Positions 15,029 to 36,927 of a DNA stretch of 40,816 bases are shown here, piece by piece. The notes beneath the pieces were generated by a model. It was not told the origin of the DNA, did not search any database, and saw nothing but the letters and a program-made list of their open reading frames with translations. The translations under genes and the position numbers were made by a program. How positions within the stretch are numbered: position 1 is the stretch's first letter; each line of letters begins with the position of its first letter. Origin of the DNA: Burkholderiaceae bacterium (GTDB lineage: Bacteria > Pseudomonadota > Gammaproteobacteria > Burkholderiales > Burkholderiaceae_C); NCBI GenBank assembly GCA_016790515.1, contig JAEUOY010000038.1, positions 1 through 40,816 on the forward strand, given 5' to 3'.

Positions 15029-16135
15029 CTATCCGACTTTGAGTCCCGAGTCCTGACCGGCAACGGACGGGGCTGCGACGGAATCGGAAGGTGCCGAGGC
15101 CATCTGCCTGATCTTTTTCAGCCACGGCCACCGAAAGCTGGTGAGATGGTGAAGGGTGCGCTTTTTTTCGGTCCAGCGTGAATGCCACTCCATGAAGCGG
15201 CCGAAGTATTCCAACCGATTCGTCCTGGCATCCTCGAAGAGCGTCCGAAGGCTTGCCAGATGCAGCAGGAACGCCGGCGACAGCGACTTGTCGACGGATT
15301 CGTCGTAGGTGGTCTTGAGCACGACGAGCGTCCCGGCGCGTGTCAGGCAGAGATTGGAAGCAACGGTGCGGCCGTCGAGCCGGTATTCATAGACCAGCGC
15401 TTCGCCTCGGGACGCTGCCTGCTCCAGCAGTTGCCTGTAGAAGCGCCCCTGGTCGTTGTCGGGATGGATTGCCGTGCCTTGTCCGGCCTTCCAGCCAGCA
15501 GACTCCAGCTGGCCGTACCGTTCGAGCGCGGGCACCATGTCGGCGGCCGCCGTGAAGCTGAGCAACTCGCCGGCGACTCCCTCCGAAGACAACTTGTTCT
15601 GCTGCTTGCGCATGTTGCTGCGCAGGTTCTTGCCGCGCTGTGCCCAGTAGGCGTCGAAGGTCCCTTCGATATCGATCCAGCCGGTCTCGATGTAGTCCGT
15701 CCAGAGGCAATCCGGGCCATCGGGCTCGCGGGGCGCATGGGCCGGGTCGACCTGGGTGATCGACAGCACGAGGCTCGCGCCCAGCGGCCCCCGCAGCAGT
15801 TGCCTCGCCAGATCGGGCAGCGACAGGCCCGGCTCCGCGACCCACGCGCCCAGCGGCACCTGCGACGGTTGCACGGTCTGCCACCGCCCATACCCGCAGC
15901 GCTGCAGCAGGAACATCGCACGCACCTTGCCGGCGTCACGTCCCACCAGCAGGCGTTCGTCACCACGGCCGAACACACGCAGTGCGCTGCCCAGCGCGTA
16001 GGTGTCGAGGAATGGCAGGTTCGATCGAAGGGAGTTCAACCGGTTCCACTCCGCGCAGACGGCCGGGTCAGCGAACGAAGGGCTGGCAGCAAGGTTTTGC
16101 CAGGTGAGTGAGGTGACGGTCATGGCGCGGGACAT
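15029..16135 (-). CDS. CelD/FemAB-like GNAT acyltransferase
   Basis: A 368-residue soluble protein with the Acetyltransf_6 (CelD/BcsL) pattern: RGKNLRSNMRKQQNKL in the middle, a GWKAGQGTAI segment, ALVYEYRLDGRTVASNLCL, and the family's terminal LKTTYDES...SPAFLLHL block. Related proteins in exosortase A clusters are called FemAB-like, and FemAB proteins transfer aminoacyl groups. Start options are ATG 16135 (used), ATG 16123 and GTG 16174; none has a convincing ribosome site. It lies 102 bp after the fused hydrolase and 46 bp before the TPR gene. It may acylate, or possibly aminoacylate, the glycan or the NRPS product; the donor cannot be read from sequence. Confidence 0.75.
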   Translation of the reverse strand: MSRAMTVTSLTWQNLAASPSFADPAVCAEWNRLNSLRSNLPFLDTYALGSALRVFGRGDERLLVGRDAGKVRAMFLLQRCGYGRWQTVQPSQVPLGAWVAEPGLSLPDLARQLLRGPLGASLVLSITQVDPAHAPREPDGPDCLWTDYIETGWIDIEGTFDAYWAQRGKNLRSNMRKQQNKLSSEGVAGELLSFTAAADMVPALERYGQLESAGWKAGQGTAIHPDNDQGRFYRQLLEQAASRGEALVYEYRLDGRTVASNLCLTRAGTLVVLKTTYDESVDKSLSPAFLLHLASLRTLFEDARTNRLEYFGRFMEWHSRWTEKKRTLHHLTSFRWPWLKKIRQMASAPSDSVAAPSVAGQDSGLKVG

Positions 16136-16237
16136 GTAGGGGTCGGGAGCCTCGCCCGTTGTCGGCACGGGCACGAAGTTTGAGCCAGTTCTCGCAAGCT
16201 TGGAACCAGGCGAAAGATCCGACCCATTGTCACGGTA

Positions 16238-18013
16238 CTAGGGCAGCGAGCCCAGCCATTGGATCGTGATCGAATTCATCGCACGCTGGTCGGCCGAGGC
16301 GGAAAGCGTGTGGTCCGCGTCGGGAAGGTCGACCCGGCTGAGGCCGCGACGTTCGAACAGGCCGTGCCAGTCGGGGCTGGCGGCTGCAAACTCGAGGAAC
16401 TCCTTGGCGGTGTAGTCGTCGCCGCTCAGTGCCAGCAGCAGGCTGCCGTCGAACTTGCGCCACGCGTCGGCCATGCGGGCCTGAAAGGGCAGCGGGCCCG
16501 ACGAGCCCGGTTTCTGCCGTGCCTTGAGCAGGTTGCTCCACAGCCCCCGTACAGCCTGGCCAGCGACTCGGCCACTGAGCAGCTTGAGCCAGAAGCCGCG
16601 TTGCCGCAGCCGCTGCGCGTAGTAGTGCTTGACCTGGGTACGCGCCAGGCTGGCTTCGGACCGCACCCAGGGGTTGAGCAGGCAGAGCCCTCTCACACGG
16701 GTGTCGGGATGCGCGTGCGCATACAGCAGGGCCGCCGACGCGGCGTCACACAGGCCCCACAGCGCGATGCGCTGCACCTGTGGCACCTGGCGGCACAGCG
16801 CATCCGACGCTGCCTTGACGTCGGGGGTGATCTGCTCGAACTGACGCAGAGCCCCCGAGCTGTCACCCATGCCGCGTGAATCGAAACGCAGCACCGGATG
16901 GCCGGCGGCCGCCAAGGCGCGCGCCAGGCTCACGAACTGGCGATGGCTGCCGGCGCGGTACTGCGGGCCGCCGACGATCACCACGACGCCGGTGCCCAGG
17001 GCGCCGCACGGGGCGTCGTGAGGCGGTCGATGCAGGATGCCGACCAGCGCCTCGCCCTCGCAGTCGAAAGCGAACGCCTCCTCGTGCGGGCCGACGCCAT
17101 CGTTGTCGGCTGCGCTGTCCTGGCGCTCTGTGCTCGTCGGCAGGGGCGGACCGGCGGTTTCGGCCTCGGCAAGGGCCTTGCACGTGAGGGCCAGCAACTC
17201 GGGCGCGTCCTCGATTTCGGTGGTCTGCCAGAACGACGGGCCGCGCACGGCGTCGGCGCGAACCGACCAGCCGGCGTCGCGCCAGACCGACGCGCCGTTG
17301 GCACCCACCGGCGACAGCGACGGGGTCGCGCCAGCAGACACCTCGAACCACAGCAGCCGACCCGGCGGAGTGGAGGCGCGCGGCGGGCGCAAGGACGCCC
17401 GCTCCAAGCCCTGGCACAGCGCCGAGGACAGCGTGTAGCCGGCCACTTCGACACTGCGGCCGCTGGCTATGTCCGCGCGCAGCTGTTCCATCGCGCCCTT
17501 GACCTGGCCGTTGAGCAGTTCTCCCGCTGCCTTCAGGCGCAGAAACTGCTGCAAGCCGAGCTTGCCGGCAGAGAACGGTTGCCAGAAGACGAGATTGCAG
17601 GTGTCGCCCACCCTGCTGGCGGCCTCGGCCGCCAGCAGGCACCCGGTGCGCAAGCCCCAGATCCACAGGGGCAGCGCCGGCTTGTCGGAGGCCACAGCGT
17701 GGCGCCCGCGCAACCACTGGCAGCCGAAGACGACGTCCTCGACCCAGTGTTCCCAGGTGGCGTCGCCGAAGTCGCCGGCGCTGTCGCCACAGCCCAGCAG
17801 ATCGATCTGCAGTACCGCGTAGCCTTTCTCCGCCAGCGCTCGCGACTGCATCGCGGCCATGCGCCGTGACTTGTTCATCTCCTCGGCGAAGGGATGCACG
17901 TAGACGACGAGGCCGCGCATCGCGCCGCCCCGTGGCCAGTGGTGCATGGCGAAGCGCTGACCGAGTGGTCCGGCGTGCGATGTCAGGAAGAGAGGTTCGA
18001 AGCCTGCTGTCAC
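16238..18013 (-). CDS. Fused exosortase-A-associated hydrolases 2 and 1
   Basis: A 591-residue protein made of two alpha/beta-hydrolases. Residues 1 to about 275 match exosortase A system-associated hydrolase 2 (TIGR03101 as I recall it): VHPFAEEMNKSRRM (39-52), QIDLLGCGDSAGDFGDA (69-85), PSFWQTTEIED (259-269). After an acidic, Ser/Thr-rich linker (about 285-310), residues 310-591 match hydrolase 1 (TIGR03100): VGGPQYRAGSHRQF (347-360), FDSRGMGDSSG (377-387), LWGLCDAASAAL (418-429) and DADHTLS (565-571). At the nucleophile elbow the first domain has GLRTG, without Ser, and the second GLCDA, with Cys. So the second may use a Cys, and the first may be non-catalytic. These are normally two adjacent genes; a fusion is unusual. 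It lies 45 bp after the carrier-protein gene. Confidence 0.9.
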   Translation of the reverse strand: MTAGFEPLFLTSHAGPLGQRFAMHHWPRGGAMRGLVVYVHPFAEEMNKSRRMAAMQSRALAEKGYAVLQIDLLGCGDSAGDFGDATWEHWVEDVVFGCQWLRGRHAVASDKPALPLWIWGLRTGCLLAAEAASRVGDTCNLVFWQPFSAGKLGLQQFLRLKAAGELLNGQVKGAMEQLRADIASGRSVEVAGYTLSSALCQGLERASLRPPRASTPPGRLLWFEVSAGATPSLSPVGANGASVWRDAGWSVRADAVRGPSFWQTTEIEDAPELLALTCKALAEAETAGPPLPTSTERQDSAADNDGVGPHEEAFAFDCEGEALVGILHRPPHDAPCGALGTGVVVIVGGPQYRAGSHRQFVSLARALAAAGHPVLRFDSRGMGDSSGALRQFEQITPDVKAASDALCRQVPQVQRIALWGLCDAASAALLYAHAHPDTRVRGLCLLNPWVRSEASLARTQVKHYYAQRLRQRGFWLKLLSGRVAGQAVRGLWSNLLKARQKPGSSGPLPFQARMADAWRKFDGSLLLALSGDDYTAKEFLEFAAASPDWHGLFERRGLSRVDLPDADHTLSASADQRAMNSITIQWLGSLP

Positions 18014-18058: not shown

Positions 18059-18307
18059 TCAGGGCGCGAGTCGCTCGCTGACGAAGTCGGCCAGGGAGCC
18101 GACCGTGGCGAAGGTGCTGCCGTCGAAATCATCGTCGATCATGAATCCGAAGCGCTCCTCGAGGGTGGTGATGAGCGTGGCAACGGCCATGGAGTCCAGC
18201 TCCGGGACAGCGCCCAGCAACAGGGTGTCTCGGGTGAAACCTGCCGAGCGACCAGCGAGACTGAGCACCTCATCCAGGATGTTGATCACTTCTCGCATGA
18301 CATCCAT
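18059..18307 (-). CDS. Acyl carrier protein, exosortase-A-associated (copy 1)
   Basis: An 82-residue carrier protein. The helix-II motif ELDSMAV carries the phosphopantetheine attachment Ser39, and the acidic DDDFDGSTFATVGSLADFV end is typical of carrier proteins in exosortase A clusters. It should carry an acyl or aminoacyl thioester handed on by the ligase or the NRPS. ATG 18307 gives the family length; the frame is open to 18367 but adds nothing. It is about 60% identical by eye to the second carrier protein at 24841-25092, with the Ser at the same position. It lies 141 bp after the DegT-type gene and 45 bp before the fused hydrolase. Confidence 0.9.
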   Translation of the reverse strand: MDVMREVINILDEVLSLAGRSAGFTRDTLLLGAVPELDSMAVATLITTLEERFGFMIDDDFDGSTFATVGSLADFVSERLAP

Positions 18308-18448
18308 CGCTATCGTGCCTCGGGCTAGGGTAATCAATGAGTCGCGGATTTTAGGCGCTGCCCGCAACGCTCAGCGGTCGAGCCGACACAGGGGCCGGAG
18401 ATTGGTGAACGGGTTCTCGATTGTGCGGGGCGGCCCGGTCCGGGCCCG

Positions 18449-19636
18449 TCATGTTCCGCGCATCACCCGCGCCACCGCCGCCGTCATCCAGGCCATGTCC
18501 TGGTCGGTCAGGGCCTGGTGACAGGGCAGGTGGAACACGCCTTGCCGGTAGCGCTGCGAGACCGGGCAGTCGGAGACGGCCATGTCGTCCCAGCGCCAGA
18601 TCGGCACGCCCAGGTGCTTGAGCGGGAAGAAGGAGCGCGGCGGGTCGTCGACCAGCAGCGGGAACATGTAGGGCGTGCAGTCCGCGGGCAGGGCGGGAAA
18701 AAGGGCCCGGCATCCCGGAAGCAGGGCGACGGCGTCGGCCCATTGCCGGTAGCGAGAACGCCGGCGCTGCACCATCATCGAGACATCGGTGTGGCGCTGG
18801 ATCCAGCGCGACACCCGCAGGCTGGACGCGGTCTCGCTGGCCGGGTCGTACTCGGCGGACGTCGCGCCACCCGGGTCGGTCCAGTCGCGGCCGGTGTGCC
18901 GGGGGTTCTCGTCGAGCGCCTGCAGCTGGGGCTCGATGGCCTCGAGCCTGGGCGGGTCGCGGCGCACACACAGTTGCTGCAGCGCCTCGCGCAGGCCGCG
19001 CAGCTCGGCAACGAGCCCGGGCGCGGCCATCTCCCCTCGGGGCAGCGCGGCATCATTGCTCCACAACGTGCCGCCATCCGGACAGGGGAAGAACTTGTAG
19101 GGGCTGGAGACCGCATATCGCCCGGTGTCCCCGATCCGGGGTGACGAGGACGCCGGCGTGCGCACGGCCGGCGCCAGGACCAGCGCGTGGGAGCAGTCCT
19201 CGATCAGCACGATGTCCTGTGATCGGCACCAATCCGCCACCGGCGCGATGTCGCGCGGCAGGCCGAAGAAGTGGGTGAAGAGCAGCGCCCTGGGTGGAGT
19301 GCTGCAGGCCTTCGCCGCGCGACGCAGGCCGTCGAGATCGGCCTGCAGGTCTGCGGTCAACCGGTAGGGCATGACCTCGCCACCCAGGCGCAGCGCCGGG
19401 TCGAGCATCGTGCGGCAATGGTAGGCCGGTGCCAGCAGCCCGCCACGGGGGCCGACCCCGGCGAATTCGTAGGCAGCGCGCAAGGCATAGCGGCCGCGGG
19501 CGAAGTGCCACGGCTGCCGGCGTGGCAGGCTGGCCTTCGAGGTGAGCTGTTCCGCTGTCAGCGGAGCCAGGACCGGCACCTTCGGTCGCGGGAACCCGCA
19601 AGCGCTCGGGTCGAAGCGGTGGTAGCGCAAGCTCAT
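18449..19636 (-). CDS. DegT/DnrJ/EryC1-family PLP aminotransferase
   Basis: A 395-residue fold type I PLP enzyme. APAYHCRTMLDPAL, VLIEDCSHAL (Asp147 for the pyridine nitrogen) and SSPYKFFPCPDGG with the Schiff-base Lys181 follow the order seen in DegT-family sugar aminotransferases, although the protein is rather divergent. The usual job is amination of a nucleotide keto-sugar. Its ATG overlaps the NRPS stop by 4 bases, so the two should be translationally coupled. That makes a job in the same pathway likely, for example providing an amino group as acceptor for the NRPS condensation domain (inference). Other PLP reactions are possible in this family. Confidence 0.8.
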   Translation of the reverse strand: MSLRYHRFDPSACGFPRPKVPVLAPLTAEQLTSKASLPRRQPWHFARGRYALRAAYEFAGVGPRGGLLAPAYHCRTMLDPALRLGGEVMPYRLTADLQADLDGLRRAAKACSTPPRALLFTHFFGLPRDIAPVADWCRSQDIVLIEDCSHALVLAPAVRTPASSSPRIGDTGRYAVSSPYKFFPCPDGGTLWSNDAALPRGEMAAPGLVAELRGLREALQQLCVRRDPPRLEAIEPQLQALDENPRHTGRDWTDPGGATSAEYDPASETASSLRVSRWIQRHTDVSMMVQRRRSRYRQWADAVALLPGCRALFPALPADCTPYMFPLLVDDPPRSFFPLKHLGVPIWRWDDMAVSDCPVSQRYRQGVFHLPCHQALTDQDMAWMTAAVARVMRGT

Positions 19637-22600
19637 CCGGTCGCGCGCGGATCTTCGCCCCGGGACAGCGAACGCAGCAGGTCGGCGTACTGCTGCGCAA
19701 GCGTCGCGATGGCATCGTCGTCGAACCGTTGTCGATCATGGACCAGGCGCAGCTGCAGCACTGCGCCCGGCGCCACGATCAACGACAACGGATAGGCCGG
19801 CACGGTGCGGAACTCCGCAGGCGCTATCCGTAGCGGTCCGGCGCCCGTCGCATCGACTGCAGGGTAATTGGACATCACGAACAGCGATTCGAACAACGCG
19901 CGACCCGCCGGCAGCGCGCACCATTTGACAATCTGGGTCAGCGGCACCGCCTCGTGCTCGCGGATGGCGGCGGCGCGCCGTTGCACCTCCGCAAGCCAGG
20001 ACCCGAGCGTCTGACTTCCGTCGTGCCGGGTATCGATGCGCAACGGCAGCGTCGTGACGAACAGCCCGACCATCGCGTCGATGCCAGGGAGGTCGAGGTC
20101 GCGGCCGCTGGTCGCGACCCCGAACACCGGACGGCCGTCGCCGCTGTGCCGAGACAGCAGGACCGCCCAGGCCGCCTGCAGCAAGGTCGCTACGGTGACA
20201 CCATGACCCCGGGCGCAACTGGCGATCGCCAGACTGTCGTCTGCCCCGAGTTCGAACCGGGTCTGACCGAAGCCGCGGGCATGCTCCCGAGGCGCGGCGA
20301 GCGACAGCGTGGGTGCGAGGTCGTGTCCGGCCAGGCAGGTGCGCCAAAAGCCCTCGCTCGGCGAGATGTCCAACCCGGACAAGCGATCGGCATAGCGCGA
20401 CCATGTCACGGGTTGCGGCAGTGCAGCAGGTCGGCCGGCGCACAGGTCGGCGTGCACGCGCAGCACCTCCATCAGCACCAGCGACAGCGACCAGCCGTCC
20501 AGGATGATGTGATGGTGGGTCCAGATCAGCCGGTGGTGTTCCGGCGCGACCCGCACCAGCGTGACGCGCATCAGGGGCGGTTTGGCGAGGTCGAATCCCG
20601 GCTCGAGGTCGGCGTCGCGCAGGTCGTCGAACGCCCGGTCTCGCTCCGAGGGGTCCAGCACCGAGTGATCGACCCTGGCCACGGTCAACCCGACCTGGCG
20701 TCGCACCACCTGTGCCGGTTGACTCAACACGCTTCTCAGGAAGCCGGAGCGCAGCGCGGCATGGCGCTGCGCGACGAACTTCCATGCCGCCTCGAATGCC
20801 TCGGGATCGAGCGTCCCGCTCAACTCGTAGCAGTACTGGTCGATGTAGACCGTCTTGTCGCGTGCCAGCAGGCCGTGCAGGTAGATGCCTTGTTGCGAGG
20901 GCGTGAGGGCGCGCACGTCCTCGTACTGCGGCTCGCGGGCCAGGAAGGCCTGGGCCTCGGCGTCGGGCAGCCGGTGCGCGGCCGGCAGCGCCACGCTGGG
21001 CTGGCCGCCGATGCCGGCGCCGTCCCGTGGCGGGTCAGTCACCGGTCGTGAAACCGCGGCCAGCCGCGCGACCGTCGGGTTCGCGAGAACGTCGGCACTT
21101 CGCAGCTGCAGGCCGGCGTTGCGAGCGCCCACCGCGATGGCCAGCGCCGTGAGCGAGTCGCCGCCGAGGGCGTAGAAGTCGTCGTCGACGCCGACCCGCA
21201 GCGCTCCGAGCTCTTCTTCCCAGAGTCCTGCGAGCGCCTTCTCGGCGGCGCTGCGAGGCGCGAGGTAGCGCGCCCGGGCGGCCGTTGCTGTCGATTGCGG
21301 CGCCGGCAGCGCCCTGCGATCGACCTTGCCTGCGGGATTGACCGGCAATGCCGTCATCCGCACCCACACCGGGGGCACCATGTGGGGCGGCAGTCGCGCG
21401 GCCAGGTGGGCGCGCAAGTCGTCGTCGCACGGCGTGGCGCCGAACGTTGGCACCACATAGGCCACGAGCTGTCCGTCGCCACGCCCGTCGTGGAAGACCT
21501 GCACCACGGCATCGTCGACGGCCGCGTGCTGGCGCAGGACGGCTTCGATTTCCGGCAGTTCGATGCGGAAGCCCCGCAATTGCACCTGTTGATCCAGCCG
21601 TCCCAGGCATTCGAGCACACCGTCGTCGCGCCAGCGACCGAGGTCGCCGGTGCGGTAAAGGGTCGGGCCAGCGGCCTCGGGAAACGGGTTGGGCACGAAG
21701 GCCTGGCGGGTCTTGTCCGGCTGCTTCCAGTAGCCGGCGCCGACCCCGACACCCGCGATGCAGATTTCCCCCGGCGCACCGACCGGCAGCGGCTGCAGCT
21801 CGGTATCGAGCACGTACAGGTCCAAATTGGCCAGCGGCTGGCCGATCGGCACGCTGGATTGACGGGGCGGCAAGGGCTCCCGCACGATGGCCTGGGATAC
21901 GTCGTCGGCGGCTTCGGTCGGACCGTAGGCATTGACCACCGGAATCTGGGGATACAGCGCGAGCCAGGCGTTGACCAGGTCGACCGGTGCCGACTCGCCG
22001 GTCACCATCGCCCAGCGCAGGCTGGGCAGCGCGCGCTGGTCCGGTGCCAGCGAAGCGGCGTATTCGACGAGGTATCGCATCACCACGGGGACCAGCTCGA
22101 TCAGCTGCAACCGGTGCCGCTGCACCTGGGCGAGCAGGTTCGCCACATCGGTGGCGTCGTCGACGATCACCGTCGTGCCGCCGAAGACCAGCGGCGCGGC
22201 GATCTGCCACACCGAGATGTCGGATGAAGACGGCGCGGTCTGCAGGATGCGGCTGACCGCCCGCTCGCCCAATGCGTGCGCCTGCGCGAACAGATGGTTG
22301 ACGGCGCCGTCGTGACGCACGATCGCGCCCTTGGGACGGCCGGTCGATCCCGAGGTGTAGACCATGTAGGCCGCATCGTCCGGCCGGGCGCGGGGACCGA
22401 GCGGCGTCGACGGCTGGTCCTGCAGTTCAGCGGCACCGTGGCTGATCCACGAGCCGGGAGCGGTGGTCCTTGCATCGCCGGCCTGCGGGCAGAGCACGTG
22501 GCGCAGGCCGGGACATGCCGCAAGTGCCGGACCAGCCCTCGCCAGTGAACCCAGTCCGACGATGGCCACCGCCGCCTCGCTGTCGGCGAGCATGTAGCGC

Positions 22601-23532
22601 ACGCGGTCCTCCGGGTAGCTCGGGTCGACCGGGATGTAGGCGCCGCCGGCCTTCCAGGTCGCCAGCACCGCGATCACGAAGTCGAGGCCACGGAAGTCCA
22701 CCACGGCAACGAACTGCCCGGGGCCTATGCCCATTGCCACCAGCAGGTGCGCCATGCGATTGGCGGCCGCATCGAGATCGCCGAAGCGCATCGCGCGCTG
22801 GTCATGGATGGCGCACAGCGCGCCGGGGTCGCGGGCCGCGCGCGACGCGATCAGGTCGCCGATGGTCTGCCCCAGTGGAAACGGCAGGCGCAGACTGTTG
22901 AAGCCTCGCAGCACGCGATGGCGCTCGGCAGCGTCCATCAGCGGGACCTCGCCGACGCGGCGGTGGTCGTCGGGATCGACGACAGCCAGCAGGTGGGCGA
23001 GCTGCCGGGCGAGCGCTGCCATGCTCTGAGCCCTGTACAACAGCTCGTTGTAGGCCATGCTGGCGTCGATTCCGCCCGACCCGTCCGGCTGCGTGTCGAA
23101 GCCGAAAACGATATCTGCCCTGGCAGGCGTCTCGTGGTGACCGAGTTCGACGACGACGCCGGAGATGTACGCGTCGCCGGTGGCCTGCGGATCGGCCGCC
23201 CGAACCAGTTCACGGCCCATCGTCGACATGACCTGCGCGACGGGCAAGTCGCGCCCGACACAGGCCTTCACGACCCGCTCGCCATCGACCGCGCGCACCA
23301 CGAAGGCGATTCGTTCGCGCCTGGCCTGCCGGGCGAGGAGCAGCGCGACAGCGGTCATCAGCAGCGCCGGCTGCGCCGGCCTGCCGGTCGCCAGGCGCGG
23401 CCGCAGTACCGCCGGAACGGGGCAGACCCCCATCTCGTGGCGCAATCGGTCGGGCGGTACGAAGTCTCGCAGCGGCGCGCTGTCCTGCAGATCCTCGTCG
23501 GCCGGCGCAACGGACTGCCGGCCGTCAGCCAC
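19633..23532 (-). CDS. Nonribosomal peptide synthetase, partial C - A - T - C, predicted diaminobutyrate-activating
   Basis: 1299 residues. Residues about 50-205 look like only the C-terminal lobe of a condensation domain, with no HHxxxDG. The adenylation domain runs about 215-745: WKAGGAYIPVDPSYPED (293-309), VYTSGSTGRPKG (391-402), NAYGPTE (534-540), LYRTGDLGRW (625-634) and NPAGKVDRRALP with Lys736. The carrier domain has LGGDSL with Ser793. A full condensation domain (about 875-1299) has HHIILDG at 1007-1013. There is no thioesterase. Aligning the pocket by eye to GrsA gives D438, I439, W442, E479, M509, T511, A535, D543, D544, K736; this differs at one position from the 2,4-diaminobutyrate code I recall. 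GTG 23532 is supported by AAGGA 8 bases upstream and overlaps the aminotransferase stop by 8 bases. Confidence 0.92.
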   Translation of the reverse strand: MADGRQSVAPADEDLQDSAPLRDFVPPDRLRHEMGVCPVPAVLRPRLATGRPAQPALLMTAVALLLARQARRERIAFVVRAVDGERVVKACVGRDLPVAQVMSTMGRELVRAADPQATGDAYISGVVVELGHHETPARADIVFGFDTQPDGSGGIDASMAYNELLYRAQSMAALARQLAHLLAVVDPDDHRRVGEVPLMDAAERHRVLRGFNSLRLPFPLGQTIGDLIASRAARDPGALCAIHDQRAMRFGDLDAAANRMAHLLVAMGIGPGQFVAVVDFRGLDFVIAVLATWKAGGAYIPVDPSYPEDRVRYMLADSEAAVAIVGLGSLARAGPALAACPGLRHVLCPQAGDARTTAPGSWISHGAAELQDQPSTPLGPRARPDDAAYMVYTSGSTGRPKGAIVRHDGAVNHLFAQAHALGERAVSRILQTAPSSSDISVWQIAAPLVFGGTTVIVDDATDVANLLAQVQRHRLQLIELVPVVMRYLVEYAASLAPDQRALPSLRWAMVTGESAPVDLVNAWLALYPQIPVVNAYGPTEAADDVSQAIVREPLPPRQSSVPIGQPLANLDLYVLDTELQPLPVGAPGEICIAGVGVGAGYWKQPDKTRQAFVPNPFPEAAGPTLYRTGDLGRWRDDGVLECLGRLDQQVQLRGFRIELPEIEAVLRQHAAVDDAVVQVFHDGRGDGQLVAYVVPTFGATPCDDDLRAHLAARLPPHMVPPVWVRMTALPVNPAGKVDRRALPAPQSTATAARARYLAPRSAAEKALAGLWEEELGALRVGVDDDFYALGGDSLTALAIAVGARNAGLQLRSADVLANPTVARLAAVSRPVTDPPRDGAGIGGQPSVALPAAHRLPDAEAQAFLAREPQYEDVRALTPSQQGIYLHGLLARDKTVYIDQYCYELSGTLDPEAFEAAWKFVAQRHAALRSGFLRSVLSQPAQVVRRQVGLTVARVDHSVLDPSERDRAFDDLRDADLEPGFDLAKPPLMRVTLVRVAPEHHRLIWTHHHIILDGWSLSLVLMEVLRVHADLCAGRPAALPQPVTWSRYADRLSGLDISPSEGFWRTCLAGHDLAPTLSLAAPREHARGFGQTRFELGADDSLAIASCARGHGVTVATLLQAAWAVLLSRHSGDGRPVFGVATSGRDLDLPGIDAMVGLFVTTLPLRIDTRHDGSQTLGSWLAEVQRRAAAIREHEAVPLTQIVKWCALPAGRALFESLFVMSNYPAVDATGAGPLRIAPAEFRTVPAYPLSLIVAPGAVLQLRLVHDRQRFDDDAIATLAQQYADLLRSLSRGEDPRATG

Positions 23533-24832
23533 GCAGGCAATCCTTCATCGCCTGTTCGACGATCGCGAATCCGGCATCGAGCAGGTCGTCTTCGGTGGTC
23601 AGTGGCGGCAGGAACTTGAGCACGCTGTCACGCCGTCCGGCAGTCTCGATCACCAGGCCCAGTTCGAAACAGCGGGCGGAGACACGCTCGGCCAGCCCAT
23701 CGGCCACCTGGCTGCAGTCGATGCCCCAGACCATGCCCAGGCCGCGGCCGGCGAGACGCTCGTCCAGCGCGACGATCCGCTGCCCGACCAACCGTTCGAT
23801 CAGCGCGCGCTTGCGCTCCACCTGGGCTTCCAGGTCGATGCGCGATGCGAGCTCGAGCGCCGCGCTGCCGCCGACAAACGCCAACTGGTTGCCGCGGAAC
23901 GTGCCTGTGTGCTCGCCCGGCTGCCAGACATCGAACTCGGGCTTCAGCAGCACCAGCGACATCGGCAGCCCGTAGCCGCTGATCGACTTCGAGAGCACGA
24001 CGATGTCGGGCACGATGCCGGCCCTCTCGAACGAGAAGAAGGGCCCACTGCGATGGCAGCCGACCTGGATATCGTCGCAGATCAGCAGGATCCGGTAGCG
24101 GGCACAGAGCTGTTGCAGCTGCTGCAGCCACTCGATCGGCGCGACGACGATGCCGCCCTCGGCCTGGATCGTCTCGACGATGATGGCAGCGGGCACCTCG
24201 CAGCCCGAGTGGGTGTCGGACAGCACACGCTCGAGGAAGGCGATGCTGGCCCCTGGCGACATATGGCCGTCGGGGAAGGGCATGAAGCTGACGTCGTGCA
24301 GGGCTGTCCCGGCCCCGGCCCGCTTGCCGCGGTTGCCGGTGACGGCCAGGCTGCCCAGCGACAGCCCGTGGTATGCGCCCATGAACGCGAAGACGCCACT
24401 GCGCCCGGTTGCCTTGCGAGCGATCTTCAGTGCCGCCTCGACGGCATTGGCGCCGGTCGGCCCGGTGAACTGAAGCTTGTAGTCGAGTCCTCGGGGGACC
24501 AGCACCTGCCGGACGAAGGCATCGATGAATCCGCGCTTGGCCTCGGTGTAGAAGTCCAGGCCGTGGGCGATGCCGTCGCCTGCCAGGTAGTCGAGCAGGC
24601 GCGTCTTGATGAAGTCGGGGTTGTGGCCGTAGTTCAGGGCTCCCGCGCCGGCGAAGAAGTCGATGTACTCGCGTCCGGATGCCGAATACAGGATCGATCC
24701 CTTGGCTCTGGCGAACAGCGCCGGGAACGAGCGACAGTAGGAGCGGACCCCGGACTCGTGCCGTTCGAAGGTCGAGAAGTCCACCGGGGTCAACACGACC
24801 GGATCGCCCCCGCCGACTTCATGGAGCGCCAT
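23525..24832 (-). CDS. Diaminobutyrate-2-oxoglutarate transaminase (EctB type)
   Basis: A 435-residue class III PLP aminotransferase. It follows EctB/DABA aminotransferase closely: SYCRSFPALFARAKGS (31-46), FFAGAGALNYGHN (59-71), QFTGPTGANAVEAALK (121-136), an ICDDIQ strand (Asp253) and SKSISGYGLPMSLVL with Lys282 for PLP, then HTGTFRGNQLAFV. The family converts L-aspartate 4-semialdehyde plus glutamate to L-2,4-diaminobutyrate. No ectA or ectC is nearby, so ectoine is not the product. Its 3' end overlaps the NRPS start by 8 bases, and its start is 8 bases after the carrier-protein stop. Supplying Dab to the NRPS is the simplest role, and agrees with the adenylation-pocket reading. Confidence 0.92.
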   Translation of the reverse strand: MALHEVGGGDPVVLTPVDFSTFERHESGVRSYCRSFPALFARAKGSILYSASGREYIDFFAGAGALNYGHNPDFIKTRLLDYLAGDGIAHGLDFYTEAKRGFIDAFVRQVLVPRGLDYKLQFTGPTGANAVEAALKIARKATGRSGVFAFMGAYHGLSLGSLAVTGNRGKRAGAGTALHDVSFMPFPDGHMSPGASIAFLERVLSDTHSGCEVPAAIIVETIQAEGGIVVAPIEWLQQLQQLCARYRILLICDDIQVGCHRSGPFFSFERAGIVPDIVVLSKSISGYGLPMSLVLLKPEFDVWQPGEHTGTFRGNQLAFVGGSAALELASRIDLEAQVERKRALIERLVGQRIVALDERLAGRGLGMVWGIDCSQVADGLAERVSARCFELGLVIETAGRRDSVLKFLPPLTTEDDLLDAGFAIVEQAMKDCLRG

Positions 24833-24840
24833 GCGTCGCG

Positions 24841-25092
24841 CTAGCCGCCGACCTTCTTGCGGACGAACTCGGCCAGCGATTCAACCGTGGCAAAGGTGTC
24901 GCCGTCGATCTCGTCGTCCGAGATCGCGATGCTGAGCCGCTCTTCCAGCGTGGTGATCAGCGTGACGACGGCCATGGAATCGAGTTGCGGCACAGCGCCC
25001 AGCAGGTTCGTTTCCCGGGTGAAACTGCTCATGCGGCCGCCCATGCCCAGCACTTCCTCGAGAATGCGAATGACTTCTGCGACCACGTCCAT
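24841..25092 (-). CDS. Acyl/peptidyl carrier protein (copy 2)
   Basis: An 83-residue carrier protein with QLDSMAV and the phosphopantetheine Ser39, ending FATVESLAEFVRKKVGG. It is very similar to the copy at 18059-18307, differing mainly in the acidic loop (SDDEIDGD). ATG 25092 is preceded by a purine-rich GGGAAAG; GTG 25125 is an alternative. It is the first gene of the minus-strand operon and is divergent from the AMP ligase, with 309 bp between. It probably receives the ligase product or acts as the acceptor carrier for the NRPS terminal condensation domain; the sequence does not say which. Confidence 0.9.
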   Translation of the reverse strand: MDVVAEVIRILEEVLGMGGRMSSFTRETNLLGAVPQLDSMAVVTLITTLEERLSIAISDDEIDGDTFATVESLAEFVRKKVGG

Positions 25093-25401
25093 CGTGGCTT
25101 TCCCATTGACTGCGTTTTTCGACACGTGAAGATTCTAGGTGCCGTAACCAGGCGGGGAGGCGTCCGTGTGGCGATAGTCGCTGCGGTACGGCAAGGTGTC
25201 ACGCAATTGCTGCCGATCCCTGTCGCCCGCCGGCACCCGCAGGCAAGCGGTTGCTGTCGCGATCGCGGTCCCCTCGGCGGACGAGTGGTGCAGGATTTGG
25301 CAAGGAGGCTGCGCGACAGGCCTCTGTGGTGCGGCTGCAGGAACCTCCTCGGCTACAGTGAAGAGCCGATCGTTGTTCGATCGCTGGGGTTTCGGAACCG
25401 C
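25093..25401. other. Divergent promoter region of carrier protein and AMP ligase
   Basis: About 310 bases between the two divergent starts with no gene. It contains a candidate sigma-54 site for the rightward ligase gene (25298-25312). No matching site was found for the leftward operon. Confidence 0.55.
25298..25312 (+). promoter_or_regulatory. Candidate sigma-54 (-24/-12) promoter
   Basis: The sequence TGGCAAGGAGGCTGC matches the consensus TGGCAC-N5-TTGC at the GG and GC dinucleotides with the required 12-base offset; it differs at two consensus positions (C to A, T to C). It lies about 90 bp upstream of ATG 25402. Exosortase A/PEP-CTERM genes in related bacteria are known to depend on RpoN and the PrsK/PrsR two-component system, so the site makes sense here. 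Confidence 0.45.
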
Positions 25402-27015
25402 ATGAACGAGTCATCACGCATTCACGACCTGGTGGCGACTGCCGCCGAGCGGTCACCCGGCGCTGCGGCGTTGTGCCACGGCGCGGACACCTTGACGTAT
25501 GCGAGCCTGCAGGACGCGGTCCAGCGGTTTTCCCGTGGCGTGCTGTCGCTGGGCCTGCGTCGCGGCGAGCGAGTCGGTGTCTTCCTCGAGAAGCGCTTCG
25601 AGACGGTCATTGCGAGTTTCGGCGCCACGTCCGCGGGTGGGGTACTCGTGCCGATGAACCCGCTGTTGAAACCCGAGCAGGTGAGCTACATCGCCACGGA
25701 CTGCGATGTGGGGTTGATCGTCACCTCCGCGGAGCGACTGGCGTTGCTCGCGCCCGTGCTCGGCAGCTGCCCTTGCTTGCGCGGTGTCGTCGTGACCGGT
25801 GCGGTCGTCGATCCGCCGGCGCTGCCACGCGGCGTTGCAATGCACGCCTGGAACGACCTGCTCGATGCGCCGAGGCGGGCCCCGCACCGTGTCATCGACA
25901 CCGACGTGGCGGCCATCCTGTATACCAGTGGCTCGACCGGTCGCCCGAAGGGCGTGGTGCTCAGCCACCGGAACATGGTCGCCGGGGCCAAGAGTGTCGC
26001 CTCGTACCTGGACAACTGCCCTGACGACACCCTGCTGGCCGCATTGCCGCTGTCGTTCGACGCCGGCTTCAGTCAGTTGACCACGGCTTTCCATGCCGGC
26101 GCCCGTGTCGTGCTGCTCAACTACCTGCTGCCGCGCGACGTGCTCAAGGCGATGGCCACAGAGAAGGTCACGGGTCTGACGGCGGTGCCGCCGCTGTACA
26201 TCCAATTGACGCAGCTGGACTGGCCGGGCGCGATCGGCGAACACTTGCGCTACTTCGCCAACACCGGCGGGCGCATGCCACGCGAGACGCTGGACGCCTT
26301 GCGGGCGCGTGTCCCCAAGGCCAAGCCCTTCCTGATGTACGGCCTGACCGAGGCCTTCCGTTCGACCTACCTGCCGCCCGAGGAGGTCGATCGCCGCCCC
26401 GACTCGATCGGCAAGGCGATCCCGAATGCCGAGATTCTGGTGCTGCGCGAGGATGGCACCGAGTGCGCTCCGGATGAGCCCGGCGAACTGGTGCACCGCG
26501 GCGCCTTGGTCGGCCAGGGCTACTGGAACGACCCCGAGAAGACCGCCGAGCGTTACAAGCTGCTGCCCGTCGGCGTCGGCGGCCGGGAAGCCGGCCTGCA
26601 GTTGCCCGAGTACGCAGTCTTCTCCGGCGATACGGTGCGTCGCGACGCCGAAGGCTTCCTGTACTTCATCGGTCGGCGCGACGAGATGATGAAGACCTCC
26701 GGTTATCGCGTCAGCCCGACCGAAGTGGAGGAGCTGCTGTACGGTACCCGACTGGTCGGAGAATGCGCTGCCTTCGGCGTCGAGCATTCGAGCCTCGGCC
26801 AGGCGATTCAGGTGATCGCCACGCCGCCGGCTGGCGCTGATTCGGTGGATGTCAAGGCGCTGCTGGCCGAGTGCAAGACCCGCATGCCGGCCTACATGGT
26901 GCCACACGGCATCGCAAGCGTGGCAGGTCCCCTGCCGCGCAATCCCAACGGCAAGATCGATCGCAGGCTGCTCGCCACGCAGTGGCTCGAGCAGCGCGCC
27001 GCTCAGATGCCGTAA
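25402..27015 (+). CDS. AMP-dependent acyl ligase, exosortase-A-associated
   Basis: A 537-residue ANL-superfamily adenylate-forming enzyme. The P-loop ILYTSGSTGRPKG is at 172-184, followed by VVLSHRNM; the MYGLTEAFRSTYLPPEEVD region and SGDTVRRDAEGFLYFIGRRD follow, and the C-terminal catalytic Lys sits in NPNGKIDRR. The TEAFRSTYLPPEEV wording is what I recall for the exosortase A system-associated ligase family (TIGR03098). It activates a carboxylic acid as acyl-AMP and should load it onto a carrier protein, two of which are encoded nearby. ATG 25402 is the only good start for a normal length. A candidate sigma-54 promoter lies upstream. Its 3' end overlaps the convergent epimerase gene by 13 bases. 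The acid substrate is unknown. Confidence 0.92.
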   Translation: MNESSRIHDLVATAAERSPGAAALCHGADTLTYASLQDAVQRFSRGVLSLGLRRGERVGVFLEKRFETVIASFGATSAGGVLVPMNPLLKPEQVSYIATDCDVGLIVTSAERLALLAPVLGSCPCLRGVVVTGAVVDPPALPRGVAMHAWNDLLDAPRRAPHRVIDTDVAAILYTSGSTGRPKGVVLSHRNMVAGAKSVASYLDNCPDDTLLAALPLSFDAGFSQLTTAFHAGARVVLLNYLLPRDVLKAMATEKVTGLTAVPPLYIQLTQLDWPGAIGEHLRYFANTGGRMPRETLDALRARVPKAKPFLMYGLTEAFRSTYLPPEEVDRRPDSIGKAIPNAEILVLREDGTECAPDEPGELVHRGALVGQGYWNDPEKTAERYKLLPVGVGGREAGLQLPEYAVFSGDTVRRDAEGFLYFIGRRDEMMKTSGYRVSPTEVEELLYGTRLVGECAAFGVEHSSLGQAIQVIATPPAGADSVDVKALLAECKTRMPAYMVPHGIASVAGPLPRNPNGKIDRRLLATQWLEQRAAQMP

Positions 27016-29565: not shown

Positions 29566-30831
29566 ATGACGACCAGCGACATTCCACCGGGGACAGCAGT
29601 CCGCCAGCGGCCCGGGCATGCGCCGATGGACCAGTTCGCGGTCCGCGACGGCGAACTGGTGGTTGGCGGCGAACGGTTGAGCACCTTGGCCGCCCGGGTC
29701 GGCCGGACGCCGTTCTATGCCTATGACCGCGGCCTGCTGCGTCGTCGGGCAGCCGAACTGCGCGCTGCGCTGCCGAGCGCGGTCAAGCTGCACTACGCGA
29801 TGAAGGCCAACCCGATGCCGGCGGTGGTCGGCCTGATGGCCGGGCTGGTCGACGGCATCGATGTCGCGTCGGCGGGCGAATTGAAAGTGGCGCTGGACGC
29901 CGGCGCCGATCCGGCCGAGATCAGCTTCGCCGGGCCGGGCAAGCGCGATGCCGAGTTGCGACAGGCGGTGGCGGCGCGGGTGCTGGTCAACGTCGAGTCG
30001 CTGCGCGAACTGCCGGTGCTGGCCGCCGCGTCGCGCGAGCTGGGTGTGCCGGCGCGGGTGGCGGTGCGCGTCAACCCGGATTTCGAGCTGAAGGGCTCGG
30101 GCATGAAGATGGGCGGCGGGCCCAAGCAGTTCGGCATCGACGTCGAGCAACTGCCCGAGGTCTTCGCCCGCATCGCCGCCGAGGGGCTGCAGTTCGAAGG
30201 CTTTCACCTGTTCGCCGGCTCGCAGAACCTGCGCGCCGAATCGATCTGCGAGGCGCAGCAGAAGAGCTACGAACTCGCGCTGCGGCTGGCCGAGGGTGCG
30301 CCGGCGCCGGTGAAATTCCTGAATCTGGGCGGCGGCTTCGGCATCCCGTATTTCCCCGGCGAGCGGCCGCTGGACCTGGCGCCGATCGGCGCGAACCTGT
30401 CGGCGCTGTGCGACCGAGCGATGCGCGATCTGCCGGGTGCCGGCCTGGTGATCGAACTCGGCCGCTATTTCGTTGGGGAAGCCGGTGTCTACGTCACCCG
30501 CATCGTCGACCGCAAAGTGTCGCGGGGCCAGGTCTTCCTGGTGACCGACGGGGGGTTGAACCATCACCTGTCGGCGTCGGGCAACTTCGGCCAGGTCGTG
30601 CGCAAGAACTATCCGGTCACGGTCGGCAACAAGGTCGACTCGACCCGGCGCGAGGTGGCCTCGGTGGTCGGCCCGCTGTGCACGCCGCTGGACCTGCTGG
30701 CCGACCGCATGGACCTGCCGGTGGCCGAAGTCGGCGACCTGGTGGTGATCTTCCAGTCCGGCGCCTATGGCGCAAGTGCCAGTCCGCAGGCCTTCCTCGG
30801 CCATCCGGCTTGCGTCGAGGTGCTCGTCTGA
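29566..30831 (+). CDS. PLP-dependent decarboxylase, exosortase-A-associated
   Basis: A 421-residue fold type III (alanine racemase-like) decarboxylase related to diaminopimelate and ornithine decarboxylases. Lys80 in HYAMKANP forms the PLP Schiff base, FHLFAGSQNL and LNLGGGFGIPYF bind the cofactor, and VVGPLCTPLDLL holds the catalytic Cys of the second active-site half. The wording fits the exosortase A system-associated decarboxylase family (TIGR03099 as I recall). The substrate is unknown; given the neighbouring Dab genes, Dab or a related amino acid on or off a carrier is a possible substrate (inference). ATG 29566 gives the normal length; Met21 is an alternative. Confidence 0.92.
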   Translation: MTTSDIPPGTAVRQRPGHAPMDQFAVRDGELVVGGERLSTLAARVGRTPFYAYDRGLLRRRAAELRAALPSAVKLHYAMKANPMPAVVGLMAGLVDGIDVASAGELKVALDAGADPAEISFAGPGKRDAELRQAVAARVLVNVESLRELPVLAAASRELGVPARVAVRVNPDFELKGSGMKMGGGPKQFGIDVEQLPEVFARIAAEGLQFEGFHLFAGSQNLRAESICEAQQKSYELALRLAEGAPAPVKFLNLGGGFGIPYFPGERPLDLAPIGANLSALCDRAMRDLPGAGLVIELGRYFVGEAGVYVTRIVDRKVSRGQVFLVTDGGLNHHLSASGNFGQVVRKNYPVTVGNKVDSTRREVASVVGPLCTPLDLLADRMDLPVAEVGDLVVIFQSGAYGASASPQAFLGHPACVEVLV

Positions 30832-30907: not shown

Positions 30908-31651
30908 ATGAAATACGGCCTGATTCAGCTTCGATGGATGCGCCCGGTGCGGGTGGCGATGGCGCTGCTGGTGTCCCTGGTCTGCGCACCGGTGAGTCTG
31001 GCAGCGCCGGTGTTGGCCACCGAGGAGGCCGATACCGGCGCGGCAGTGGCCGAACCGCTGACCGCGCCGATCCGGACGCCGTCGACAGGCCCTGCGCTGG
31101 GGCGCTCGAACGGCCCGGTCGTCGTGCCCGAGGCGTCTACCGGCAACAAGAACCTCGACCTGCTGCTCGAACTGCAGGGCCGTCCCGGCGAAGAGGATCA
31201 GCGCCAGGCCGCTCCGCCAACGACGGCGGCGGCATCGGCCGCCGCGGCGGCGCTGGCCGACCTGCGCCGCAGGGCGGCACAGAAGCCTGCCCCAGAACCC
31301 GATGCGAACAAGCCGGCGCAGCAGCCCCTCGAAGGCCTGGGCACGCTGGACAGCAACGCCGAACGGGCGCAGCCGCCGGAACGCCGTGAATGGACCGGTC
31401 GGCCAGCGGGCGCAGGCGGTGGCGCCGGCTTCGGAGGAGGCGCCGGGGTCGGTGGCGGGGACGGGGGCTATGGCGATGGGGGCCGCGAGTCGGCCGGTTC
31501 GCGCAATGGTTACGAGGACGACAACCTGCTGCGCCAATTGCCGCGCGAGTTGATGCTCTTCCTGCGCGACAACCGCTACTGGCTGCTCGGCGGCCTGGCG
31601 GTGATCGGCGTCATCGGCGCCGCGCTGCAGTCCTACAGCCGTCGCCCCTGA
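30908..31651 (+). CDS. Unrecognised exported protein, Gly-rich with C-terminal membrane anchor
   Basis: A 247-residue protein I do not recognise. It has a signal peptide (1-33, cleavage near SLAAP), an Ala/Pro/Gln-rich low-complexity middle (95-140), a very Gly-rich stretch (167-192), a short charged segment, then a hydrophobic helix (224-240) and a short tail ending SRRP. This gives a periplasmic or surface chain held by one C-terminal membrane segment. The layout, a signal peptide plus terminal helix plus Arg tail, recalls sorted proteins, but the Pro-Glu-Pro motif before the helix is absent. ATG 30908 starts the signal peptide. It follows the decarboxylase by 76 bp. Function unknown; a role in EPS export or a non-standard sorting substrate is possible. 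Confidence 0.7.
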   Translation: MKYGLIQLRWMRPVRVAMALLVSLVCAPVSLAAPVLATEEADTGAAVAEPLTAPIRTPSTGPALGRSNGPVVVPEASTGNKNLDLLLELQGRPGEEDQRQAAPPTTAAASAAAAALADLRRRAAQKPAPEPDANKPAQQPLEGLGTLDSNAERAQPPERREWTGRPAGAGGGAGFGGGAGVGGGDGGYGDGGRESAGSRNGYEDDNLLRQLPRELMLFLRDNRYWLLGGLAVIGVIGAALQSYSRRP

Positions 31652-31743
31652 GCCCGCGCGGTCGGGCCGGGCGTGCTGGTGGCAACGGCCGCCCCGGCTT
31701 CCCGCTACCATTCGGCAAGACTTCCTCGACCCGGAGACACCGC

Positions 31744-32220
31744 ATGATCGCCCTGAAACTGGAGGTCAACGGCCAGCCCGTGACCACCGAAGTGGCGCCA
31801 GCCACCCTGCTGATCGACCTGCTGCGCGGCCCGCTGGCGCTCACCGGCACCCATGCCGGCTGCGACACCTCGCAGTGCGGCGCCTGCACCGTGCTGGTCG
31901 ACGGCGAATCGGTCAAGAGCTGCAGCCTGCTTGCGGTGCAGGCCGCCGGCCGCCGCATCACCACGGTCGAAGGCCTGGCCAGCGGCGACCGCTTGCACCC
32001 GGTGCAGCAGGCCTTCATGGACTGCCACGGCCTGCAGTGCGGCTTCTGCACCCCCGGCATGATGATGACCAGCGCCTGCCTGCTGTCCAAGAACCCGAAG
32101 CCCAGCGACGCCGAGATCGCCCACGCGCTCGAAGGCAACCTGTGCCGCTGCACCGGCTACGTCAACATCGTCGCGGCGGTCAAGCAGGCCTCGGCCGCCA
32201 TCGCAGGAGCCCAGGCATGA
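31744..32220 (+). CDS. [2Fe-2S] small subunit of a CO/xanthine dehydrogenase-family enzyme (CoxS-like)
   Basis: A 158-residue protein with two iron-sulfur sites: Cys40, Cys45, Cys48 and Cys60 (plant-ferredoxin type, CDTSQCGACTVLVDGE) and Cys99, Cys102, Cys134 and Cys136 (CGFCTPGM and CRCTGY). It passes electrons from the molybdenum centre of the large subunit. GGAG lies 7 bases before ATG 31744. The stop overlaps the large-subunit ATG in ATGA. The length is normal. Confidence 0.95.
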   Translation: MIALKLEVNGQPVTTEVAPATLLIDLLRGPLALTGTHAGCDTSQCGACTVLVDGESVKSCSLLAVQAAGRRITTVEGLASGDRLHPVQQAFMDCHGLQCGFCTPGMMMTSACLLSKNPKPSDAEIAHALEGNLCRCTGYVNIVAAVKQASAAIAGAQA

Positions 32221-34583: not shown

Positions 34584-34587
34584 CCGG

Positions 34588-35757: not shown

Positions 35758-35763
35758 GGCGAT

Positions 35764-36921
35764 TCAGCCGACGTGCCGCAGTCCGGCGACGATGTCGATG
35801 CGGCTCATCCGCCAGGCCGGCCAGGCGGCGGCCACCGCGCCGACGACCAGCGCGGCCAGCAGCTGCAGCGCCGTCGTCAGCCCCGAGACCTGGAAGATCG
35901 GGAACAGCGTGCCCGCCGCGCTGCGGAACGCCGCGGCCAGCGGAAAGGTCAGCGCCAGCCCGGCCCCGCCGCCGATCGCCGCGATCAGCAGACTCTCGCC
36001 GAACAGCAGCCGCACGACGAAGCCCGGCGAGAAGCCCAGCGCCTTCAGCGTCGCGTACTCGGCCAGCCGCTCGCGGGCGGTCATCGTCATCGTGTTGGCC
36101 ATCACCGCCATGATGATGATCACGATGATGAAGCTCACCGCCTGCACCGCCGTCAGGATCGCCTCGCTCATCGCGACGAAGCTGAGCTGGAACGCGGCCT
36201 CGGTCTCGGTCAGCGTCTCGGCCAGCGAGTTGGCGAACAGCTGGTCGACCCGCTGGCTGACCTGCGCGGCGTTGTTCGGCTCGTCGATGCCGAGCACGTA
36301 GACGCCGACCTGGTCGGCGCGGCCCTTGAAGCGCTGGCGGATCGACTCGTTGAGGTAGTTCCAGTGCATCAGCAGCTGGCTCTCGTCGGTCTTGGCGTCG
36401 GCGCCGTCCCAGATGCCGCGCAGCGTGAAGGTCCAGGTGCCGGGGTAGATCGTGCCGCGCAGCGGGATCTGGTCGCCGATCTTCCAGCCGAACTTCTCGG
36501 CGAGCTGGCGGCCGACCAGCGCGCCCTGGCGGTCGCGGAAGAAGGCCAGCTTCTCCTCGTCGCTGAGCCGGTACTCGGGGTACAGCGCCAGGTAGCTGGG
36601 CGGGTCGACCGCGAACTGCGGGAAGAAGTTGCGCTCGGTGATGTAGACGCCGCCGAACCAGTTGGCCCAGCTGACCTGGCGCACGCCCTCGACGGCGCGC
36701 AGTCGCTGCGCGTAGTTCAGCGGCAGCGCGAAGGTCAACGAGATGTTGCTGCGCGTCACCAGCCGGGTGCTGCTGCTGGCCTCGACACCGGCATGCCAGG
36801 CGTCGACGATGGTGCGCAGCAGGCCGAAGGCGCAGATCGCGACCACCAGCCCGACCATCGTCAGCGCGGTGCGCAGCTTGTGGCGGAACGCGTTCTTCAG
36901 CAGCAGCCGAAATACGAACAT
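35764..36921 (-). CDS. ABC transporter permease (FtsX/MacB type), first copy
   Basis: A 385-residue protein with the same four-segment layout as its neighbour: a membrane segment at about 15-35, a periplasmic domain, and three segments in the C-terminal third with [19 protein letters not shown] as the coupling motif. ATG 36921 starts 6 bases after the ATPase stop. It works with the ATPase and the HlyD-type adaptor, a DevBCA/MacAB-like arrangement that exports lipids, peptides or drugs to the periplasm or outside. Confidence 0.9.
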
Positions 36922-36927
36922 GGCGCT

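Follow-up and report, generated by a model that had tools for sequence, protein, structure and literature searches.

Clusters in which a transaminase forming L-2,4-diaminobutyrate (Dab) stands beside a Dab-activating nonribosomal peptide synthetase (NRPS) are a known arrangement. A study of pelgipeptin reportedly describes such a transaminase in or near its NRPS cluster. In the accessible parts of the respective papers, the same is described for PvdH in pyoverdine synthesis (PMC12195549) and for DaT (PMC3849588). Here, we examine a stretch of 40,816 bases (hereafter, the window), which is a whole contig (JAEUOY010000038.1, our C24) of a Burkholderiaceae draft assembly of 5.0 Mb in 176 contigs, with 82% completeness and 2% contamination, and in which an EctB-type aminotransferase gene overlaps the gene of a single-module NRPS within the core of an exosortase-A (XrtA) locus; this placement is new. 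We show that the EctB-NRPS pair very probably makes and activates Dab, and the best explanation, which we consider likely, is that it constitutes a Dab supply-and-loading module. The main features are as follows.

23525 to 24832, minus strand: EctB-type L-2,4-diaminobutyrate:2-oxoglutarate aminotransferase, 435 amino acids, ATG start (TIGR02407, Lys282, DDIQ at 253).
19633 to 23532, minus strand: single-module NRPS, 1299 amino acids, GTG start (Pfam domains and motif scan).
21298 to 22890, minus strand: adenylation (A) domain of that NRPS, pocket DIWEMTADDK (alignment to GrsA).

Thirty open reading frames (ORFs) of the window were scanned against NCBIfam. The initial annotation had proposed an EctB-type enzyme with a pyridoxal phosphate (PLP) lysine at position 282, and this held: Lys282 was located by its LSK motif and the protein passed TIGR02407 (553.7 bits, equivalog cut-off 552.2), as well as PRK09264 (589.4 bits, cut-off 438) and TIGR00709 (429.2 bits, cut-off 401.6), while falling below the cut-offs of other Dab-transaminase models (PRK06938, 340 against 671 bits; PRK06931, 331 against 753 bits). 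It is a class III aminotransferase (PF00202, 217.2 bits), whose closest solved chains are the Dab-2-oxoglutarate transaminases 9s1q, 9s1p and 6rl5. Its ORF shares 8 bases with that of the NRPS, the overlap that had been claimed. On sequence grounds there is strong reason to predict that EctB converts aspartate semialdehyde and glutamate to Dab. The lack of ectA and ectC that had been noted was also found, as neither family occurs among the 30 window ORFs; genome-wide, ectoine synthase (ectC, PF06339) yielded no match in this 82% complete assembly against one match in each of five ectoine-operon controls, a search that was not extended to EctA. Because the window EctB is the sole copy in the genome above the TIGR02407 cut-off and ectC was not found, Dab is unlikely to serve ectoine here, and ectoine synthesis was rejected as the role of the enzyme.

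The NRPS begins with a degenerate condensation (C) remnant (about residues 1-215) that by eye has no HHxxxDG and for which Pfam lists no domain, followed by AMP-binding (230-602, within an A domain of about 230-745), PP-binding (766-826) and Condensation (PF00668, 871-1289) domains. The motif scan showed complete A core motifs A3, A5, A7, A8 and A10 and a GGDS motif with Ser793 in the peptidyl carrier protein (PCP), and detected no thioesterase motif. The terminal C domain keeps HHIILDG at 1007; its C1 and C3 motifs may resemble those of D-C-L domains, a likeness on which we place no weight. A poly-Dab synthetase was considered and rejected, since a normal C domain stands where the terminal part of a Pls/PosA synthetase would be; TIGR02353 was not among the matches listed for the NRPS (25 of 102 families), which leaves room for a weak match.

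For the pocket, the ruler was a GrsA core identical to 1amu over residues 234-529, on which GrsA itself reads DAWTIAAICK, its known code. The pocket read by eye in the initial annotation, DIWEMTADDK, was recovered on this alignment, Lys517 included. The DIWELTADDK code given in the initial annotation for syringomycin-type modules, one letter away, does exist, as sequence only, in a Burkholderia arboris plasmid domain; the exact reference code was not found in the literature search. The window pocket fits D-x-W-E-x-x-A-D-D-K, a pattern associated with Dab, also by the neighbouring genes described below. Inspection by eye of the alignment with the closest solved A core, 9n1u, gives D-V-W-E-M-N-A-D-D for the latter. 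In a search of 399 genomes of the order, the best NRPS match had 38% identity, and a scan of one contig collection returned 20 loci, all of them distant adenylating enzymes (at most 31% identity) and no named close relative.

In the plasmid collection, the A domain (43.9% identity) and EctB (60.0%) have their top-ranked matches on the same record, plasmid pn1 of Nostoc sp. UHCC 0926 (NZ_CP117772.1, L175). There, EctB is followed by a 932-residue truncated-C/A/PCP protein (40% identity over 724 columns) with the same DIWEMTADDK code, and ahead of it stands a separate protein with a C domain, 33% like the terminal domain in the window. In a genome of the same family as the window (G077, locus L018), a DIWESTADDK gene, a gene for a 2465-residue NRPS and EctB are consecutive on one strand, and Methylocystis iwaonis has a cluster with DIWELCADDK that includes a gene annotated as a Dab transaminase, whose product is 38% like the window EctB. 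The pattern D-x-W-E-x-x-A-D-D-K was present in five of 80 A-domain rows other than the window, rows that come from loci chosen for EctB or for likeness to the window A domain rather than at random. Three of the five stand with a Dab-type transaminase (Nostoc, G077 and Methylocystis), one with genes for 2,3-diaminopropionate (Dap), and one without an EctB-like match within 20 kb. Among the 80 rows, two (L182, L188) read one domain a second time; the survey misses A domains that lack the two search motifs, and five of the 28 loci surveyed (L137, L138, L140, L176, L179) yielded no row. The initial annotation held that the enzyme making Dab and the enzyme choosing it agree; the EctB model and the trees below support this, as does the recurrence of the pocket beside Dab transaminases, in Nostoc in identical form.

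Other codes were found in NRPS genes linked to EctB, namely DFECISAVTK, DFECLSVVTK, DIEHVTAV[ST]K and DVEIMGAIVK, of which DFECISAVTK in L024 is of the Pls/PosA kind. In two genomes of the same class, EctB adjoins an A domain with DIEHVTAV[ST]K (L132, 7139-11022; L134, 9945-13835). At L023, L024 and L182, EctB adjoins a DFEC-code synthetase, assigned to Pls/PosA by model in L024, by annotation in L182 and by identical code in L023, the last from the window's own genus; these synthetases likely serve a diamino-acid homopolymer.

We then placed the aminotransferase in two phylogenies, the check that the initial annotation had suggested, and in both it fell among EctBs and apart from the outgroups. 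In the first tree (60 rows), the window EctB sat on a long branch near ectoine EctBs. In the second, in which seven plasmid EctBs were added and a Dat outgroup replaced the former one, it grouped with four EctBs, one from Nostoc, two from Paenibacillus plasmids and one from a Klebsiella plasmid. Within this group, two of the four others, those of Nostoc and Paenibacillus sonchi, directly adjoin NRPS genes, and the Klebsiella EctB has an ACP S-malonyltransferase gene nearby. A branch with 97/95 support separates the window group plus the Dat outgroup from the 61 other rows, which comprise 52 labelled ectoine, seven linked to NRPS (G077 included) and two from Streptomyces. The ectoine label means that a row is not on the NRPS list: 50 of 59 loci have a neighbour cluster of which one member was tested and proved to be EctA, and the nine without it are the window, six NRPS-listed loci, and L104 and L131, which both still carry the label. 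Since NRPS-linked EctBs stand on both sides, such linkage does not define the branch of the window EctB. Judged from these trees, that branch is distinct from the ectoine branch of its class and NRPS linkage appears to have arisen on both sides; ectoine and NRPS EctBs alike make Dab. The best EctB identity was 60% in the second tree (Nostoc) and 56% in the three genome sets searched (149, 399 and 369). Our preferred explanation is that the EctB-NRPS pair was captured from a secondary-metabolism cluster.

The surroundings of the pair belong to a different system. On the minus strand, the genes run in the order ACP1 (acyl carrier protein 1), EctB, NRPS, DegT, ACP2, fused hydrolases, FemAB/GNAT-like transferase and tetratricopeptide repeat (TPR) protein, with intergenic gaps of 8, -8, -4, 81, 45, 63 and -35 bases, respectively. 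On the plus strand, an adenylate-forming ligase gene diverges from ACP1 and a PLP decarboxylase gene lies further downstream. Position 25092, taken at first as the end of the operon, is an in-frame ATG within ACP1 (GTG start), and the gene run also extends past 19633. Scans for promoters and terminators gave no signal above that of shuffled sequences. The further features are listed here.

24841 to 25125, minus strand: ACP1, stand-alone carrier protein with an LDSMA site, 8 bases ahead of EctB (PF00550, 28.5 bits).
18449 to 19636, minus strand: DegT/DnrJ/EryC1-type PLP aminotransferase, Lys181 kept, 4-base overlap with the NRPS gene (PF01041, 47.2 bits).
18059 to 18367, minus strand: ACP2, second carrier protein, adjoining the hydrolases (PF00550, 21.8 bits).
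16238 to 18013, minus strand: fused exosortase-A-associated hydrolases 2 and 1 (TIGR03101, 310.4 bits; TIGR03100, 338.9 bits; both above cut-off).
15029 to 16174, minus strand: GNAT/FemAB-like acyltransferase (PF13480, 66.1 bits).
25378 to 27015, plus strand: adenylate-forming ligase of the XrtA system, start codon not settled (TIGR03098, 768.1 bits, cut-off 592.35).
29566 to 30831, plus strand: BtrK-like PLP decarboxylase of the XrtA system (TIGR03099, 629.4 bits, cut-off 478.45).

Because the ligase, the decarboxylase and both hydrolases (TIGR03098, TIGR03099, TIGR03101 and TIGR03100) pass their curated cut-offs, we assign the locus to the XrtA system, whose exosortase is present on another contig, C145 (TIGR03109, 337.8 bits, cut-off 208). 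The hydrolase fusion is no peculiarity of the window, as a single alignment spans both in L048 too. The window ligase has Asp at the GrsA-235 position and Lys at 517, and both residues are kept by the XrtA ligases of all 44 other loci (L045-L057, L141-L173); the alignment is gapped at 330 and 331, and only the remaining pocket positions were read. In amino-acid-activating enzymes, Asp235 holds the alpha-amine. The decarboxylase has as its closest solved chain 7ru7, the L-glutamyl-[BtrI acyl-carrier protein] decarboxylase BtrK (269.7 bits), against 182.5 bits for the best diaminopimelate decarboxylase. We infer from these likenesses that the XrtA core may load an amino acid on the ACP and decarboxylate it to an omega-aminoacyl-ACP. 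DegT is an XrtA-locus gene elsewhere, 11 of the 13 DegT loci read in relatives also holding the XrtA ligase, and a FemAB-like homologue occurs in 15 of 44 ligase-bearing XrtA loci. At L046 (18372-19901 and 8585-10737), in another relative, an A domain (DPIACGVIFK) stands about 8 kb from a FemAB/DegT pair, in a stretch without XrtA ligase.

Elsewhere in the window, positions 2701-4500 (minus strand) encode an AsnB-like protein nearest to TIGR03108, the XrtA/PEP-CTERM amidotransferase (245 bits, cut-off 816.9), 31390-32220 (plus strand) an iron-sulphur subunit resembling those of molybdopterin oxidoreductases, and 34588-38948 (minus strand) a MacA-like adaptor, an ABC ATPase and two weakly ADOP-like permeases. 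The XrtA genes seem to end near 31390-38948.

To assess how unusual this placement is, we searched three genome sets for EctB (E ≤ 1e-100). It was present in 11 of the 149 relatives, in 24 of the 399 order-level genomes and in 49 of the 369 class-level ones, 77 genomes together, each tally including the window's own genome; in the class search, 30 of the 60 matches were assigned no locus and stay outside the classification. The XrtA ligase is present in nine of the 77 EctB genomes and shares a contig with EctB only in the window genome; in the eight others they lie on different contigs, which in draft genomes is not final. TIGR03098 gave 53 matches in 50 of 149 genomes, own included. We read 44 of the 52 other matches over at most 20 kb, less at contig ends, with 11 loci centred on DegT; the remaining eight matches are all below the family cut-off. 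EctB, condensation domains and further A domains were absent from all 44 of these ligase-bearing loci, and no conserved XrtA-NRPS subfamily emerged within this set. The 44 loci have one ACP match in 37 cases, none in six and two in one (L153), the single ACP usually joining the ligase side and the hydrolase side. In the window, ACP1 adjoins the ligase and ACP2 the hydrolases, with EctB, NRPS and DegT between them, and the two carriers share 62% identity across 87 residues, an arrangement that would fit entry of a cassette at a duplicated ACP. The searches made gave no further example of the single-module form within an XrtA core locus.

As a Dab supply-and-loading module, the pair would work as follows. 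EctB would supply Dab from aspartate semialdehyde and glutamate, the A domain would adenylate it and the PCP would hold the Dab thioester, activities suggested by the pocket and core motifs. The terminal C domain, with HHxxxDG intact, would couple Dab to an amine, for which a candidate is offered by the omega-aminoacyl-ACP that ligase, ACP and BtrK-like decarboxylase may give. Coupling by the C domain would leave Dab attached to the amine held by the ACP, and the cationic Dab-aminoacyl unit so formed would be transferred to a surface glycan or anchor by the FemAB-like transferase or by an enzyme related to it. We put forward this coupling and destination tentatively, at somewhat less than even chances. 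Slightly more doubtful is the wider scheme in which the XrtA genes form an aminoacyl-carrier line for a surface glycan or protein anchor, to which the captured Dab NRPS module adds a cationic amino acid. The modification linked to exopolysaccharide that was proposed initially is inferred from location only. In NCBIfam, the exosortase-A accessory genes (ligase, decarboxylase and hydrolases) bear only descriptive names of the "hypothetical equivalog" type. A paper on Methanothrix salinity genes reportedly mentions both exosortase and diaminobutyrate. Literature titles and abstracts, with subscription journals mostly outside their scope, gave no link of XrtA accessory genes to diaminobutyrate, NRPS modules or BtrK, and neither did the accessible parts of PMC1569441 and PMC11631085. 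A module with a predictable amino acid inside the XrtA pathway represents a handle on that pathway, and bound diaminobutyrate on the cell surface, if found, would show what the pathway decorates.

Several observations weigh against a Dab module tied to the surface system. EctB exceeds the TIGR02407 cut-off by only 1.5 bits. In the first tree it sat among ectoine EctBs, if weakly (82/82), and it shifted to the Nostoc/Paenibacillus/Klebsiella-plasmid group only after the plasmid rows had been added, with 94/46 support; moreover, seven other NRPS-linked EctBs, including the one linked to DIWESTADDK, fall on the ectoine side. The Nostoc C domain has RHFLIADG in place of an exact HHxxxDG, and an MbtH protein was found neither in the window genome nor in the same-family DIWESTADDK genome. 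A DIWEVTADDK domain occurs in a Streptomyces cluster with SbnA/SbnB (L187, NZ_CP108007.1). Finally, the pair was seen in none of the other XrtA loci examined, which gives no sign of a conserved tie to the surface system.

The last point is also what a soluble product would predict. Dab might be made and activated for a small peptide or siderophore-like compound, with the XrtA location incidental, and relatives of the module and EctB do lie in multi-gene NRPS clusters (Nostoc L175, G077 L018 and Paenibacillus L176). However, the window has only one module, no thioesterase motif was found in it and no further NRPS was detected among the 30 ORFs scanned, whereas overlaps of 4 and 8 bases pack the pair into the XrtA run, with an XrtA-type ACP on either side. 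We regard a soluble product as possible, though the less probable course.

As for the substrate, the SbnA/SbnB cluster carries the same kind of code, so that the pocket alone indicates Dab or Dap; two Dap codes are 80% identical to Dab codes according to the accessible part of PMC12283262. Dab is favoured because the gene that overlaps the one for the NRPS encodes EctB, a member of a Dab-forming family. In addition, the SbnA/SbnB families were not among the 30 window ORFs scanned and the identical code stands beside EctB in Nostoc, and activation of Dap instead of Dab is thus improbable.

Slightly less probable again is that EctB acts on a carrier-bound or modified substrate, making an amine on the ACP line instead of free Dab. 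ACP1 directly upstream of EctB would suit this, as would two Streptomyces plasmids (L177, 5921-15189; L178, 5947-15091) on which genes for a decarboxylase, a holo-ACP synthase, a ligase and a carrier protein lead up to EctB in one run; in L177, the plasmid tested, TIGR03099 and TIGR03098 are the best-scoring families for decarboxylase and ligase, respectively, though below their cut-offs. Carrier lines and EctB therefore meet elsewhere too. These runs continue, however, with EctA, P450, ferredoxin, reductase and ectoine synthase, and because EctA and ectoine synthase are present, free Dab is likely made there. The runs might yield an ectoine-like compound assembled with the help of a carrier protein. 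The window EctB itself belongs to a free-Dab family, and the adjacent A pocket suits a free diamino acid. A chimeric contig or contamination, joining a foreign NRPS fragment to an XrtA contig, could be imagined from the fragmented, incomplete and 2% contaminated draft and from an arrangement seen in no relative examined, but is very improbable given that the genes overlap at the joints and lie between two XrtA-type ACPs, and given third-position GC contents of 0.85 (NRPS) and 0.87 (EctB) against 0.85 (ligase) and 0.86 (hydrolases), and close codon usage, though ligase and hydrolases belonged to the reference set.

A Dab supply-and-loading module thus remains the reading to compare with known systems. 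The window follows the same make-beside-activate logic as the Dab transaminase-NRPS clusters, including PvdH and Paenibacillus sonchi, in which an EctB of the same family as that in the window follows an NRPS gene. Unlike Dab peptide clusters, it has one NRPS module, no thioesterase motif that we could find, and an exosortase-A locus around it. The Nostoc pn1 unit is similar in that EctB adjoins a truncated-C/A/PCP protein with identical code and a homologous C domain, but there the C domain is a separate gene and the unit stands among large NRPS genes. With the Pls/PosA synthetases (L024, L182, L023), the window shares an EctB adjoining an amino-acid-activating enzyme, whereas their pocket begins with DFEC and, in L024, they end in a TIGR02353 domain, against a normal C domain and another code here. 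The core families TIGR03098-03101 are those of XrtA (EpsH) loci, and ACP, FemAB, DegT and TPR genes lie nearby as in several relatives; what sets the window apart from other XrtA loci is the extra EctB-NRPS pair and the second ACP. Lastly, the XrtA line resembles butirosin synthesis, which provides the closest solved decarboxylase (BtrK) and in which ligase, ACP and decarboxylase likewise co-occur. BtrK and the fluvirucin decarboxylase FlvO act on aminoacyl-ACP, and butirosin synthesis uses an ATP-grasp ligase, unlike the adenylate-forming ligase of the XrtA system.

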